Of a DNA stretch of 64,000 nucleotides, positions 4,034-54,865 are shown in pieces. The notes beneath the pieces were generated by a model that was not told the DNA's origin, made no database searches, and saw nothing but the letters and a program-made list of their open reading frames with translations. The stretch covers positions 62,001 through 126,000 of the forward strand of contig CAIJLW010000086.1 of NCBI GenBank assembly GCA_903821685.1, given 5' to 3'. Each line of letters begins with the position of its first letter. Within the stretch, counting starts at the first letter, position 1. This DNA comes from an uncultured Sphingomonadales bacterium (GTDB taxonomy: Bacteria; Pseudomonadota; Alphaproteobacteria; Sphingomonadales; Sphingomonadaceae). Both the position numbers and the translations under genes were made by a program.

Positions 4034-4123
4034 TGGCGGACAGGGTGGGATTCGAACCCACGGTGAGCTTCCACCCACGACGGTTTTCAAGACCGTTGCC
4101 TTAAACCACTCGGCCACCTGTCC
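4034..4123 (-). tRNA. tRNA-Ser (anticodon TGA)
   Basis: The minus strand folds as a class II tRNA of 90 nt. The acceptor stem pairs GGACAGG with CCTGTCC, the anticodon loop reads CTTGAAA (TGA, serine UCA codons), there is a long variable arm (GTGGGTGGAAGCTCAC region), a T-loop GGTTCGAATCC and an encoded CCA end. Confidence 0.97.
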
Positions 4124-10961: not shown

Positions 10962-12287
10962 CTATGCTTCTAATTGCGTGAACTGCTTTTCAAACTGTCC
11001 CCACAGCTGCCTACTTAACGACACATCCACGGACACGGTTTCACCGTCAACTATCTGGTGTGTCACGGTCCCTCGCCCATGTAACCATGCCAATGGAGCA
11101 CCATCGTCAGCCCGAAGCTTCACCGTCCTAACGTCGTTGCCCTTGGCAATCAGCGCCGACAAATGCGCTTTGAACGCGTCGACACCCTCTCCGGTCTCGG
11201 CAGAAATCATAAGCACGGTATCATCGCGCCTGGATATGCCAGTTAATTCGTCAAGACGATCGCCTTCCAAAAGGTCCATCTTATTCCATAGTTCAACCAT
11301 GCGCGGCTGATTCCCCGCATCAGCATCATCAATAACACCAAGATCGCGAAGGATCTGCAGCACATCGTCACGCTGTGAATCCGTTTCGGGATGCGAAATA
11401 TCGCGAACATGGACGACGATGTCTGCCGAGATCACTTCTTCCAGTGTCGCACGGAAGGCCGCGATCAATTGCGTTGGAAGATCCGAGACAAAGCCAACAG
11501 TGTCAGATAGAATCGCCTTTTCGACGCCTGGCAGTGCAATTTGCCGCATGGTCGGGTCCAATGTCGCAAACAACATATCTTCTGCCAACACGGTTGCGCG
11601 CGTCAGTTTATTAAACAATGTCGATTTACCCGCGTTGGTATATCCGACCAACGCAATGACTGGCCAAGGCGCGCGTTTGCGCCGAGCGCGATGCAGCGAA
11701 CGTGTTCTCTTGACCTCTTCCAACTCACGCCGCAACCGTGCCATGCGGTCGCGGATCATGCGACGGTCGGCCTCAATCTGCGTTTCACCAGGGCCGCCAA
11801 GAAAGCCAAAGCCCCCACGCTGACGTTCCAAATGGGTCCAACTGCGCACCAAACGCCCAGCTTGATAATCAAGATGTGCCAACTCCACCTGCAACCGTCC
11901 TTCGGCAGTGGCAGCGCGCTCGCCGAAAATCTCAAGAATTAGCCCAGTCCGGTCAATCGTCTTGAGGCCCGTCCGTTCTTCAAGGTTTCGTTGCTGAATT
12001 GCGGTTAAAGATGCGTCTACAATCAGAAGGTCAGCTTCCAACTCGCGACCCATTTCTGCGATTTCTTCAACCTGCCCCCCGCCGAGCAAGGTTACCGCGC
12101 GCGGCGAACGCACCCGATAATGTTTCTTGCGCACGACGTTCAAACCGATCGCAAGTGCAAGACCCTCAGCCTCGGCAAGACGCGACTCTGGCCCTACAGA
12201 GGCTCTTCCGGGTAGCTCTGGGTAAACGACCAAAGCACGCGCGCCACGCGCGAACTCGTCCGTTTCGCTGCGTTCAAACCCGCTCAA
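10962..12287 (-). CDS. hflX: GTPase HflX
   Basis: A 441-residue ribosome-associated GTPase of the Obg-HflX group that splits stalled 70S ribosomes. The N-terminal HflX domain ends in the [12 protein letters not shown] block, followed by the G domain with G1 [10 protein letters not shown]3 DTVGF and G4 NKMD. Its start overlaps the hfq stop by four bases, so it is translationally coupled to hfq, the classic hfq-hflX order. Confidence 0.95.
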
Positions 12288-12781
12288 ATATCGCTCTCGT
12301 CGACGCCTTGATTATATTCTGCAAGGTTAACCGGATGGGCTGGCTGGATAGTGGATATAGCATGCTTGTATACAAGCTGCGTCGTCCCATCTCGTTCCAG
12401 CATGACCGAAAAAAGATCATAGGCAGCAATGGCGCCTTGAAGCATGACGCCATTCACCAGAAACGTGGTGACTGACTCGTTCTTGTCGCACATGGCGTGG
12501 AGAAAGACGTCCTGCAACGCGCCAGGTCGGTGGCTTGTACGCGACATCATTTCATCAAACAGCGCCCTGTCAGGGGACGTAGATGGCATAATTGTAGAAA
12601 TGGAATGCTTATAAACGAGTTGCGACAGGCCGTCGCGGCGCAAAAGCACCGAAAAATTATCAAACCACGTTACAACGCCTTGAAGCTTGACCCCTTTGAC
12701 CAAAAACATGGTCACGGGTGTTTTCGATTTTCTGAGGGAGTTCAGAAAGAGGTCTTGAAGTCCGTTATTTTTTTCAGTCAT
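12284..12781 (-). CDS. hfq: RNA chaperone Hfq, tandem two-domain form
   Basis: A 165-residue protein with two complete Hfq (Sm-like) domains, at about residues 7-67 and 87-147, whereas ordinary Hfq has one. Both have the Sm1 FLVxGVxLQG and the Sm2 LVYKHxIST motif. Domain 1 keeps a basic rim (R17, K18, K20) and N14 and K32 equivalents of the standard protein. Domain 2 has C98, D99, K100, N101, E102 at the rim, H95 for the asparagine and M113 for the lysine, so its rim and proximal surface differ. A trimer of such chains could make a six-Sm ring with alternating surfaces. Hfq pairs small RNAs with mRNAs. It lies between ntrX and hflX, overlapping hflX by four bases. Confidence 0.93.
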
Positions 12782-12896: not shown

Positions 12897-14297
12897 TCAA
12901 ACGTCTCCATCATCGTTAAAGTCCAAGGCGTTCTTACGCACCGAAATACCAAGCAGCTTAAGCTTCCGGTGCAGAGCCGAGCGCTCCATACCAACAAATG
13001 TAGCCGTCTTCGAGATGTTCCCAGAGAAACGCTTGATCTGCACGCGAAGATATTCCCGTTCAAACGCTTCGCGTGCTTCCCGTAATGGCGCGCCCATCAA
13101 AGACGTCACATTATGCTCTGCGCCTTCATAGCTATTGATAATTTCCGAAGGAAGCATGTCCGCTTCTATCGTTACAATGCCGTCTGCTGGCGCCATTATG
13201 ATCGTACGTTCTATTATATTTCGCAATTGGCGAACATTGCCTGGCCATTCGCACGCTTGTAGCGCGGCCAAGGCATCGTCGGAAAAATTGGGCGGAGAAA
13301 TGCGGTGCTCGGATGCAAAACGGGCAGCATAATGGTGGACAAGGTTTGGTATATCTTCACGCCGGCCAGATAATGCCGGTATTTCGACAGGAACGACGTT
13401 CAGTCTGTAAAAAAGGTCTTCACGAAACCGACCCTCCGATATTTCAACCGCCAGATCGCGCGCCGTTGCGGACACAAAGCGGACATCTACCCTAATTTGT
13501 CGGTCACCGCCTACGCGCACAAAGCTTTGGTCGGTTAGAACGCGCAGGATCTTGCCTTGTGTTGTGCGCGGCATATCCGCCACTTCGTCGAGGAACACAG
13601 TCCCGCCATGGGCCTTTTCTAGCATGCCTGCCTGAAAAAGGTGCCCATCTCGTTCAATACCGAATAGTTCTTCGTCAAACCGTTCCGGCGAAAGACGGGC
13701 GGCGCTAACCGAGATAAAGGCAGACCCTGCCCGCGGACTCCAACTGTGCAGCAAACGCGCCGCGACTTCTTTTCCAACCCCTGCAGGACCGGTAATAAGC
13801 ATCCGGCTGCCCGTGCCCGCAACTTTTTTCAGCGTCGCACGCACCGCGTTGATTGACGGCGAAGACCCTGTCAGTTCTTCCGAATGCCCAACCCGTGCCT
13901 TCAGTACAGCATTTTCGGCGCGAAGCCGTTCAGTTTCAGTTGCCTTCGCCACCAAGTGCAACAACTTGCTAGCTTCAAAAGGTTTCTCAATGAAGTCAAC
14001 GGCGCCCTGGCCAATGGCTGCAACAGCGGTGTCGATGTTGCCATGGCCAGAGAACACAATAACCGGAATTTGCGGGTCGCGGACCTTGATAACGCGCAAC
14101 AGTTCGATGCCGTCCATTGATGAACCCCGCAACCAAACGTCGAGCAGTATTAAGGATGGCAAACGCTCATCCAGCGCAGCTAGTGCATCATCCGCCGAAG
14201 ATGCGGTTCTGGTGCCGTAGCCTTCGTCTTCCAAAACACCGGAGACCAGATCCCTAATGTCTTGCTCGTCGTCTACAATCAGTATGTCGAGTGCCAT
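12897..14297 (-). CDS. ntrX: Response regulator NtrX (AAA+ NtrC-family, without GAFTGA)
   Basis: A 466-residue response regulator of the NtrY-NtrX system, linked in alphaproteobacteria to nitrogen metabolism, redox response and envelope control. Order: receiver domain (residues 1-120, acidic D9/D10, phospho-acceptor in ILLDVWLRG, lysine in EKPFE), an AAA+ domain with Walker A GPAGVGKE and Walker B VFLDEVAD, and a Fis-type helix-turn-helix at the C-terminus (SKTATFVGMERSALHRKL). The GAFTGA loop that contacts sigma-54 is replaced by GIERDGHLFQAG, so sigma-54 activation is unlikely. Two bases separate it from ntrY. Confidence 0.93.
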   Translation of the reverse strand: MALDILIVDDEQDIRDLVSGVLEDEGYGTRTASSADDALAALDERLPSLILLDVWLRGSSMDGIELLRVIKVRDPQIPVIVFSGHGNIDTAVAAIGQGAVDFIEKPFEASKLLHLVAKATETERLRAENAVLKARVGHSEELTGSSPSINAVRATLKKVAGTGSRMLITGPAGVGKEVAARLLHSWSPRAGSAFISVSAARLSPERFDEELFGIERDGHLFQAGMLEKAHGGTVFLDEVADMPRTTQGKILRVLTDQSFVRVGGDRQIRVDVRFVSATARDLAVEISEGRFREDLFYRLNVVPVEIPALSGRREDIPNLVHHYAARFASEHRISPPNFSDDALAALQACEWPGNVRQLRNIIERTIIMAPADGIVTIEADMLPSEIINSYEGAEHNVTSLMGAPLREAREAFEREYLRVQIKRFSGNISKTATFVGMERSALHRKLKLLGISVRKNALDFNDDGDV

Positions 14298-14299
14298 AA

Positions 14300-16561
14300 T
14301 CAGCCCATAACCTCATCTGAATTGGAAGGAGGTAAGGAGGATTTCGCTTTCCCCACCTTGGATGCAACGTTTTCGGGGTGAAACTTTAGCGTGACAACCG
14401 CCCCTGCCGGCTCGTTATCCGAAAGCAAAATTTCGCCAAAATGCTCTTCAATAATCTTTTTTACAATCGCCAGACCAAGACCAGATCCGGTCGCACGATT
14501 GGTAATATAAGGCTCCATGATCCGCTGTCTGTCCGATGGTAAACCAATCCCATTATCTGCTATTCGAATAATTAACGCCTTGTCCTCCATCAGGAGATCA
14601 ACGGATATTACGCCATCAAGCGGTATCTTTTTTCGTTTTTCCTCAATCGATTCAACCGCATTTTTAAGAATATTGGTAACTGCTTGCCCCAACTGTCGGC
14701 GGTCTGAAATAAGTGGCGCAATTTGGCCTTCTTGGCGGTAATCAAACACAATATCGGGATGCGCCACCTCAAAGAGAAATACCGCATGGCCGACGATATC
14801 GTGCACATTCTCGGCACGAAACAGAGGCTTTGGCATACGTGCAAAGGACGAAAACTCATCAACAATATTACGCAAATCTCCGACTTGACGGACAATTGTG
14901 CTCGTCAACTGTTCAAATATTGCTTGATCTTGCGGGATGTTCTTACCGAACCTGCGTTGCAATCGTTCCGCGGCCAATTGGATGGGTGTCAGTGGATTTT
15001 TGATTTCATGCGCAATACGTCGTGCGACATCCGACCAAGCAGCACGGCGTTGGTCAGCCAATTGCTGGCTAATGTCTTCGAACGTCACCACATTGCCCTG
15101 CGCACGCGGCGAAACCGTGACTGCGACTGTAACCGGCTCTGGCCCATCGCCCAGTTGCACAACGCCGCGCGCACTTTCGTTTACCAAAGCGGCCAACGCG
15201 GGCGCGACCAAGGTGAATTGCTGCCCCACGATAGTTAACGATGCGTTCTTCAGAAGCTTTTCAGCGGTCGAATTGGCCAGTTCAACAACACCATTGCCAT
15301 CAACTGATAAAACGCCAGCGGAAACGGACTCCAGGACGGCTTCGATGAACAACCGTCGCTCGCCAAGTTGATGGTTTGTTGCAAGTAACACACCGGTTTG
15401 TGCCTGTAAGCGCTCAGTCATGCGGTTGAACGATTGCGACAGAAACCCGACCTCGTCTTCGCGAAACTCATCTATACTGACCCGAGCGGACAGGTCACCG
15501 TCCGCAATCTGCTGCGCCGCATCCACAAGGTTGTTCACAGGACGCACAAGGCGATCAGCGACCCGCAGGGCTACCCACAAAGTAATTCCAATAATCATCA
15601 ACGACACAAAATAGAGCGCGAGATTGAACTGGATTTGAAGCGCGCGTGAACGCGCAACCATCTTGTCGTAATCTTCAAGCACGGATTGCGCGCGCGCACC
15701 CAAGGCAAATGAAGGTACAGTTTCGGCTCGCCTGACGTATAAATAGGTTCTTGGACTGTCAAACAGCACAACAACTGCATCGATATTGTTAGGGCTAACG
15801 GTCACAACGAAATTTTCGCCGGACTTAAGTTTTCGCAACGCTTCGCTACTGATCCAGTTACCACGGGGCTTTTCGGCCAACACAGCCTCTGTATTTTGCT
15901 GCCCATTGGGACTGATTGTCACAATCGCGGATTCACTCAGCTTACGGTTCAAGACCTGCTGGGGATATGCAATTTCGAGAAATTCTGAACTGTCGATTTT
16001 GACTTGCGACAGAATGTACCGGATATCGCCAGCCATCGTAACAGTCTCGGCCCCGACATCGCGCACTTTCTCGTCATAATATCCCTTCGCTAGCTCACCT
16101 GCATTTTGCAGCATCCCGCGTGCGGATCCAGAAAACCAGAACTGAACCCCGCTTTGAAAAAGCAATGATGCAAAAATAACCAGCAAGACAGTTGGCACTG
16201 CAGTAATTGCGGAAAATATGGCGACCAGACGCACATGCAGTAATTGTTTACTGCCTATGTTGCTATTCTCCGCCCGCTTGAGTGCAACACGCCGCCCGAA
16301 CAACACCAGAAGTAATGTTGCTGGCAATAAATTACCCACCAACATCGTTGCGGATGCAGCTGGTGCAAGGGGTTCTGACTGCTGCCCCTGCCCGATCAAA
16401 AGCAAAGCGGTTACAACGCCAGCGACAACAATCATCACTGCGCTTGCGATTTCGAGAAATTTTATCGACTGGCCGTTACCCACTAGGTCAGCAAGCCAAT
16501 CAAAAAGGCGACGGGGGGCGGAAGGTATTGACGTATCCTTCGTTAGTCCATTTGTTGCCAT
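14300..16561 (-). CDS. ntrY: Sensor histidine kinase NtrY
   Basis: A 753-residue membrane kinase, partner of NtrX. It has about four hydrophobic segments (two near residues 35-85, one near 125-145 and one near 310-330), a large periplasmic loop between the last two, then a HAMP domain, a PAS domain, and HisKA with the phospho-histidine in ARRIAHEIKNPLTP, ending with HATPase blocks (NILKNAVESIEE, DNGIGLP, GSGLGLAIVKKI). A TTG at 16615 would add 18 residues, but ATG at 16561 (ATNGLTKD) gives a more usual N-terminus; neither has a strong ribosome site. Confidence 0.92.
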   Translation of the reverse strand: MATNGLTKDTSIPSAPRRLFDWLADLVGNGQSIKFLEIASAVMIVVAGVVTALLLIGQGQQSEPLAPAASATMLVGNLLPATLLLVLFGRRVALKRAENSNIGSKQLLHVRLVAIFSAITAVPTVLLVIFASLLFQSGVQFWFSGSARGMLQNAGELAKGYYDEKVRDVGAETVTMAGDIRYILSQVKIDSSEFLEIAYPQQVLNRKLSESAIVTISPNGQQNTEAVLAEKPRGNWISSEALRKLKSGENFVVTVSPNNIDAVVVLFDSPRTYLYVRRAETVPSFALGARAQSVLEDYDKMVARSRALQIQFNLALYFVSLMIIGITLWVALRVADRLVRPVNNLVDAAQQIADGDLSARVSIDEFREDEVGFLSQSFNRMTERLQAQTGVLLATNHQLGERRLFIEAVLESVSAGVLSVDGNGVVELANSTAEKLLKNASLTIVGQQFTLVAPALAALVNESARGVVQLGDGPEPVTVAVTVSPRAQGNVVTFEDISQQLADQRRAAWSDVARRIAHEIKNPLTPIQLAAERLQRRFGKNIPQDQAIFEQLTSTIVRQVGDLRNIVDEFSSFARMPKPLFRAENVHDIVGHAVFLFEVAHPDIVFDYRQEGQIAPLISDRRQLGQAVTNILKNAVESIEEKRKKIPLDGVISVDLLMEDKALIIRIADNGIGLPSDRQRIMEPYITNRATGSGLGLAIVKKIIEEHFGEILLSDNEPAGAVVTLKFHPENVASKVGKAKSSLPPSNSDEVMG

Positions 16562-16643
16562 AAAGTCACTGTGGCATTCCTTGCGTTGCCTGAAAAGCAC
16601 AAAATTATGGTCCAAATGCCACGTGTCGCGTTAAGTGCTCATT

Positions 16644-54643: not shown

Positions 54644-54723
<80 letters not shown>

Positions 54724-54788: not shown

Positions 54789-54865
54789 TGGTGGGCCCGG
54801 AGGGACTCGAACCCCCGACCTAGCCGTTATGAGCGGCCAGCTCTAACCAACTGAGCTACAGGCCC
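54789..54865 (-). tRNA. tRNA with CAT anticodon, probably tRNA-Ile2 (lysidine-modified)
   Basis: A 77-nt tRNA on the minus strand: acceptor GGGCCTG with CGGGCCC, anticodon loop CTCATAA, T-loop GGTTCGAGTCC and encoded CCA. The acceptor and D-arm (GGGCCTGTAGCTCAGTTGG) look like those of isoleucine tRNAs; it lacks the initiator features (unpaired first base, three G-C pairs in the anticodon stem). Elongator tRNA-Met is the alternative. Confidence 0.9.

Follow-up and report, generated by a model that had tools for sequence, protein, structure and literature searches.

Eukaryotic Sm and Lsm rings are assembled from seven unlike Sm subunits, which are encoded by separate genes and make unequal contacts with RNA. 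In Hfq from E. coli each subunit carries N28, K31 and the full rim, and with six equal subunits it is hard to ask how many rims or distal pockets Hfq needs simultaneously. Novosphingobium is reportedly named in a survey of Hfq from 2002.

In 2010, Hfq from Zymomonas and from six other Sphingomonadales species was described as having two Sm-like domains, and its authors asked if the ring might consist of three chains (PMC2877685). A ring of three chains was also the central idea of the initial annotation of the gene described here, which is thus a question already in print. As given in the available text of that paper, Zymomonas mobilis ZMO0347 has two Sm/Hfq domains per chain and comes from the bacterial order to which the present genome belongs, and the main text, to the extent available, describes no difference between the halves. 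The accessible parts of PMC9797736, PMC10725011, PMC11784078 and PMC9068810 contain nothing on the halves, and no description of unequal tandem-Hfq halves was found in the accessible text of the open-licence literature, most subscription papers lying outside the search. N. aromaticivorans is listed with two hfq-like copies (PMC3474761). Two sRNAs tested in Zymomonas were unbound by Hfq in vitro, and Hfq matters for fitness in that organism (available text of PMC7064620); an sRNA role in sphingomonads is therefore only putative. The two-domain architecture was already known, and what is new here is the family-wide comparison of the halves.

According to the available text of the papers cited, uridines are held at the rim by N13, R16, R17 and F39 (PMC4337610, PMC5379935), and the A-R-N pockets are made up of Gln33, Gln52, Leu32, Thr61 and the backbone amide of residue 31 (PMC6422490). 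The rim is tied to the annealing or pairing step, and the U-rich 3' ends of sRNAs lie on the proximal face (PMC6561178, PMC12262471, PMC4337610). Annealing tracks how many arginines the rim has, and the rim is where the acidic tips of the tails dock (PMC6561178). The R16A substitution nearly abolished captured sRNA-mRNA pairs and K31A gave almost fourfold fewer; in E. coli reporter tests K31A was mild and R16A retained part of the function (PMC12262471).

The doubled hfq gene and its locus

The closest named relatives of the genome from which the window (the whole stretch of 64,000 nucleotides analysed) was taken are Sphingorhabdus genomes. The features of the hfq locus are given below, with positions numbered by alignment with E. 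coli Hfq from NC_000913.3.

12284..12781, minus strand: hfq gene, two Hfq/Sm domains per chain; ATG to TGA open reading frame, 165 aa
12578..12760, minus strand: D1, Hfq domain with basic rim; PF17209, 101 bits, E 5.6e-29
12329..12517, minus strand: D2, Hfq domain with altered rim; PF17209, 84.4 bits, E 8.6e-24
12518..12583, minus strand: linker of 22 residues, from after D1 P64 to before D2 L7
12287..12340, minus strand: C-terminal tail, 18 residues past D2 P64, with an acidic tip
12695..12697, minus strand: Lys of D1 that aligns with E. coli residue 28 (residue 29 of the protein)
12443..12445, minus strand: Met of D2 that aligns with E. coli residue 31 (residue 113 of the protein)
12476..12490, minus strand: D2 rim segment CDKNE (residues 98-102, on E. 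coli R16-V20)
12497..12499, minus strand: His of D2 that aligns with E. coli residue 13 (residue 95 of the protein)
10962..12287, minus strand: HflX-type GTPase, downstream neighbour; GTP-bdg_N, GTP-bdg_M, MMR_HSR1
12897..14297, minus strand: NtrX-type response regulator, upstream neighbour
14300-16615: NtrY-type kinase, beyond NtrX, with its own Pfam domain

HflX and NtrX are names assigned here from domain make-up and gene order. With the HflX type downstream and the NtrX/NtrY types upstream, this is an ordinary alphaproteobacterial hfq locus. Past NtrX and NtrY come another sigma-54 regulator and a histidine kinase; beyond hflX, on the opposite strand, is MazG. At 12284-12287 there is a two-base overlap of the hfq stop codon with the TTG start of the hflX frame, that start being a mechanical call. 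Scans of the region around hfq were at chance for promoters (1 found, 0.9 expected) and weak for terminators (3 found, 1.2 expected). With Rfam at gathering scores, the window gave only three tRNAs (4037-4123, 54650-54723 and 54792-54865, all on the minus strand).

The reading of the gene as two Sm domains in one chain, made in the initial annotation, was borne out by the presence of two PF17209 stretches in the single 165-aa open reading frame at 12284-12781. Each stretch is above the cut-off of 27 bits, and the whole protein scores 182 bits (E 1.4e-54); the first two residues of the linker fall within the D1 match. The protein also scores 170.6 bits against TIGR02383 (cut-off 61.7) and 190 against NF001602 (cut-off 95). 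Residues 1-159 align to positions 16-173 of the NCBIfam two-domain model PRK14091.1 (NF010691, 176 positions), a full-length alignment; the score of 261.2 bits lies below the curated cut-off of 270. That cut-off was passed by 63 of 80 family genomes and failed by 17, including three of the four from the window's genus. Besides the two matches in hfq, no further Hfq was found in the genome's own assembly (2.12 Mb in 148 contigs, 96.6% complete).

The alignment with E. coli Hfq also agrees with the rims as first annotated. D1 keeps the basic rim (N13 and RKSK) and K31. The rim of D2 is CDKNE, and the counterparts of N13 and K31 are His95 and Met113. The Lys28 of D1, which had been missed, is the matching change in the first half. 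Compared with the E. coli protein, D1 has thus acquired Lys28, and D2 has lost Lys31 and carries a changed rim. Both halves of the window's protein have the Q8, F42, Y55, K56 and H57 of the proximal uridine pocket and the distal residues G29, L32, Q33, Q52 and T61. The best solved match of D1 is Caulobacter Hfq 6gwk (E 7.9e-30). The basic rim of Caulobacter Hfq (R18, K19, K21, R49 and R50) and its acidic tail tips, as described in the available text of PMC6561178, are like D1 and the tail here; unlike the window's protein, it has a single domain per chain, with a rim and an acidic tail on each subunit.

Distribution and origin of the tandem gene

The order was searched with a single-domain Hfq model (396 genomes). 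Two Hfq matches were found in 300 of the 313 genomes of the window's own family and one in the remaining 13, in accord with the remark in the initial annotation that tandem Hfq had been noted in sphingomonads and with the report in the available text of PMC2877685. Both domains lie in one open frame in all 89 genomes opened of the 300, which represent 47 genera. The seven other families of the order gave one match in 76 of 83 genomes, none in six and two in one, and no intact tandem Hfq was seen in these 83. A candidate tandem in G001 (L226, contig 82, another family) was rejected, as its second Hfq is a 51-residue piece at the contig end. When the two-domain model was applied to the class (385 genomes) and the phylum (398 genomes), no tandem outside the family was found among the matches listed, where no match from outside the family goes past model position 122 of 176; since the matches listed stop above the lower-scoring rows, a strongly diverged tandem could be missed. 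One genome with tandem Hfq, L113 (G201, genus g35, 2.1 Mb), had no NtrX match in the 1.5-kb flank.

A tree of the neighbouring HflX and NtrX (129 rows) requires only a single switch between the one-domain and two-domain forms; the branch that carries it has an SH-aLRT of 99. The tree comes from a quick search under LG+G4, with a midpoint root only and SH-aLRT without bootstrap, and 23 of the 129 rows have less than half of the columns filled. It includes all 89 tandem genomes and 9 of the 65 loci L018-L082; most named Alphaproteobacteria are omitted, as are L003-L017, 23 of the 30 loci L083-L112 and rows with fewer than 350 filled columns. Twelve of the family's 13 single-domain genomes diverge immediately outside the tandem clade, with the other families and other Alphaproteobacteria on the far side, and therefore look ancestral. 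Loss of D2 was considered for the 13 and rejected for the 12 on this position. The thirteenth, G053, was placed among other families, where the program warns of meeting long branches, and its position is unsure. Asn28 and Lys31 are kept in all 13.

In a tree of the separate domains (210 rows, 72 columns), all D1 sequences lie on one side of one branch (support 89) and all D2 sequences on one side of another (support 86). This tree was subsampled: L003-L017 and nine diverged g12 genomes are absent from it, as are roughly three in four of L019-L112. One doubling, retained since throughout the sample, is the simplest account of these sequences.

Comparison of the two halves

Residue counts were made with an HMM built on 65 single-domain sequences and E. 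coli Hfq. The counts for the 89 tandem genomes are without L003-L017, four of which are G083/G131. The 119 single-domain rows used for comparison stand for 114 distinct genomes or named records and 81 distinct core sequences; at least two named records, L018 and L036, are at zero distance from a G genome in the HflX and NtrX tree and may be duplicates. A rim site was counted as complete if it had N13, a basic residue at each of positions 16, 17 and 19, Trp or Ser at 38, an aromatic side chain at 39 and, in the 47 loop, two basic residues.

In the alignment of sphingomonad Hfq proteins, which had been suggested with the initial annotation as a check on it, a complete rim site was present in 80 of 89 D1 domains and in none of the 89 D2 domains; it was present in every single-domain row (119/119). 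N13 was found in 89/89 D1 against 13/89 D2. The loss of the rim is graded, since parts of it survive in D2: 51 of 89 chains still have R16, 27 have a basic residue at 17 and 80 retain the 47 loop's second arginine. The mean net charge of the rim was +3.81 in D1 and -0.87 in D2 (75 chains outside g12) and +3.96 in the singles (119 rows), with values of +4 and -2 for D1 and D2 of the window. The last ten residues of the tail were net acidic in all 75 chains outside g12.

Exact CDKNE is limited to the window's close relatives, and other genera carry other D2 rims. When 8 genomes of the window's genus were compared with 15 named relatives (four of the named rows being identical to two of the genus rows), the D2 residue at position 13 was His in 20 of 23, that at 16 was Cys in 19 of 23 and that at 17 was Asp in all 23. 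The remaining four had Ser, Phe, His or Arg at position 16. His95 and Cys98 in D2 of the window (12488-12499) are three residues apart and would be expected on one helix; the same is true of most relatives.

The two halves have changed reciprocally on the distal face. Position 28 is Lys in 89/89 D1, and it is Asn both in 89/89 D2 and in 114/114 singles. Position 31 in D2 is Met in 82 of 89 chains (75/75 outside g12), Arg in one and Lys in none, and elsewhere it is Lys (80) or Arg (9) in the 89 D1 domains and Lys in 114/114 singles. A rule derived here for the clade, namely Lys28 in D1 with Asn28 and no Lys31 in D2, holds in 89/89 chains including that of the window (29 K, 110 N and 113 M). There are two distal lysines in D1 and none in D2, as against one per domain before, so that the lysines have been moved rather than lost. 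Other near-fixed marks of D2 are Gln63 (83/89), Ala38 (73/89), Leu41 (69/89) and a Glu before position 47 (68/89). The available text of the open-licence literature searched yielded no earlier description of the reciprocal change at 28 and 31. As the rim and 28/31 patterns run throughout the 89 chains the asymmetry is family-wide and more marked than the initial annotation described, and, judged from the sequences, the unequal halves are an old specialisation across the family.

Both halves are under purifying selection. When the window's gene was compared with ten relatives, dN/dS was 0-0.076 for D1, where 9 of the 10 pairs could be computed. For D2 it was 0.012-0.12 (7 of 10 pairs, the others being saturated at silent sites). 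Outside g12 the D2 residues Q8, Y55, K56 and H57 were present in 90/90 chains and F42 in 89/90, and the distal residues named above were nearly always present in both halves. The variability figures leave out all 14 g12 genomes. For the remaining 75 chains mean identity was 0.88 in D1 and 0.75 in D2, D1 and D2 of the same chain were on average 59% identical, and the linker was of 20-24 residues in every case. The entropy of D2 was 1.82 bits at the rim, 0.77 at other core columns, 0.15 at the proximal face and 0.00 at the distal face; rim entropy was 0.16 bits in D1 and 0.12 in the singles. Random sets of core columns matched the D2 rim entropy with P 0.0012, or P 0.0001 when each genus contributed a single chain; for the excess of the D2 rim over the D1 rim, P was 0.0001 or less in 20,000 draws. 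The columns are not independent, so that these P values serve for guidance. Because the species tree is the same for D1 and D2, kinship alone cannot produce the rim difference. D2 has apparently been retained for its proximal and distal faces, with constraint relaxed at the rim.

Arrangement of the domains and diverged members

The reading we prefer, to which a probability of about 0.62 is given, is that the doubled hfq now yields an alternating ring of three chains, with three full rims and with the distal lysines moved to D1. The Hfq of this cell would have arisen when an ordinary alphaproteobacterial hfq was doubled once, in frame, within the window's family, and three chains would close as one pseudo-hexameric ring with D1 and D2 in alternation. 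Such a ring would contain six pockets on the proximal face and six on the distal face, but only three full rims and three acidic tails where a ring of single-domain subunits has six of either. Distal charge would be found on every second subunit, and the total of six lysines would equal the ancestral one. The expected effect would be weaker non-specific binding at the rim and fewer annealing sites, with binding at the faces little altered; by sequence comparison, the residues of the proximal U-pocket and most of those of the distal A-R-N pockets are in both halves. In comparison with the eukaryotic Sm and Lsm rings, here, if the ring is right, one gene would supply two alternating domains. The near-constant linker and the unchanged total of six lysines fit the alternating ring, and neither proves it. 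Caulobacter Hfq 6gwk, the closest relative with a solved structure, is a hexamer, which favours such a ring. Since K31A is mild in reporters and the contact of residue 31 is made by its backbone, the change from Lys31 to Met may matter little.

The initial annotation had gone on to propose that the number of intact rims sets the number of sRNAs bound per ring. While its tandem, its kept D1 rim and its altered D2 rim all stand, this last part is unsupported as worded. In the available text of the papers cited above the rim serves annealing or pairing and the U-rich 3' ends of sRNAs bind the proximal face; the proximal pockets are kept in both halves, so that the sRNA count per ring need not change.

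Modelling of the monomer by AlphaFold2 gave a pLDDT of 38 and a pTM of 0.23 with 13 tandem rows, and a pLDDT of 61.6 and a pTM of 0.60 with 70 rows (13 tandem and 57 single-domain), D2 being fair in the latter and the middle of D1 below 50. Both models are too poor to position D1 against D2, and the claims about the ring therefore do not rest on them. In Foldseek the top match of the 70-row model was Caulobacter Hfq 6gwk, at 0.9 A over 66 columns and with 57% identity. Judged by that identity and by the model confidence, the matching part is probably D2; the match confirms the Hfq fold and nothing further.

An arrangement of six chains as two stacked rings joined by six linkers, in which a ring of D1 only anneals and a ring of D2 only holds RNA by its faces, would in principle be within reach of a linker of about 22 residues, and the 59% identity of D1 and D2 is enough divergence for homotypic rings to be possible. 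It would, however, put 12 distal lysines in the D1 ring and none in the D2 ring, whereas alternation keeps the ancestral six, and the length of the linker is nearly constant (20-24 residues in 75/75). We regard stacking as decidedly unlikely. It is also unlikely, in our estimation, that D2 is a structural spacer whose rim drifts without adaptive meaning after a doubling fixed by chance, ie constructive neutral change. The rim columns are indeed the most variable class of D2, and D2 as a whole is less conserved than D1 (identity 0.75 against 0.88), but a spacer would hardly be expected to have nearly invariant faces (0.00 bits at the distal face), a Met31 fixed in 75/75 chains outside g12 and a dN/dS far below 1 in the pairs computed, and the tree requires no D2 loss. 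Neutral loss that affected only the rim may have occurred and could in part be reconciled with the alternating ring. The sharing of His13, Asp17 and mostly Cys16 by D2 of the window's genus and its near relatives might point to a new task for the rim there, for example a contact with protein or metal. These rows are close relatives, so descent alone may explain the sharing, and position 16 is Ser, Phe, His or Arg in the other four; a new task is considered highly improbable.

D2 is without what the E. coli R16A and K31A proteins lack (no Arg16 in 38/89, no Lys31 in 89/89) and D1 has both, so D2 would resemble the rim and K31 mutants and D1 would be whole. If the alternating ring is true, the family offers a ready-made, fixed 3+3 ring for laboratory use. 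A wider proposal is made only tentatively, the odds being somewhat against it: that sRNA regulation depends family-wide on a mixed Hfq ring whose alternating subunits were specialised a single time and permanently, with the rim and distal-lysine contacts on D1, base-reading pockets on all six domains, three full annealing sites and unlike neighbouring distal pockets. If the mixed ring is true, target choice would differ from that in E. coli, for example with A-R-N repeats read per two subunits. The matter bears on whether the Zymomonas Hfq, which is relevant to fitness, acts as an sRNA chaperone (available text of PMC7064620).

Some members depart from the usual residues. D2 of L113 (G201) is without a basic residue at positions 13-20. 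Both halves are strongly diverged in nine g12 genomes, L215-L223 (G094, G154, G322, G153, G170, G212, G165, G151 and G216). In D1, position 31 is Arg in all nine and Gln takes the place of His57 in five; in D2, Gln33 is replaced by E, K, R or H, and the domain reaches no more than 33-48 bits. The other five g12 genomes opened have the usual residues at D1 31, D2 33 and D1 57.
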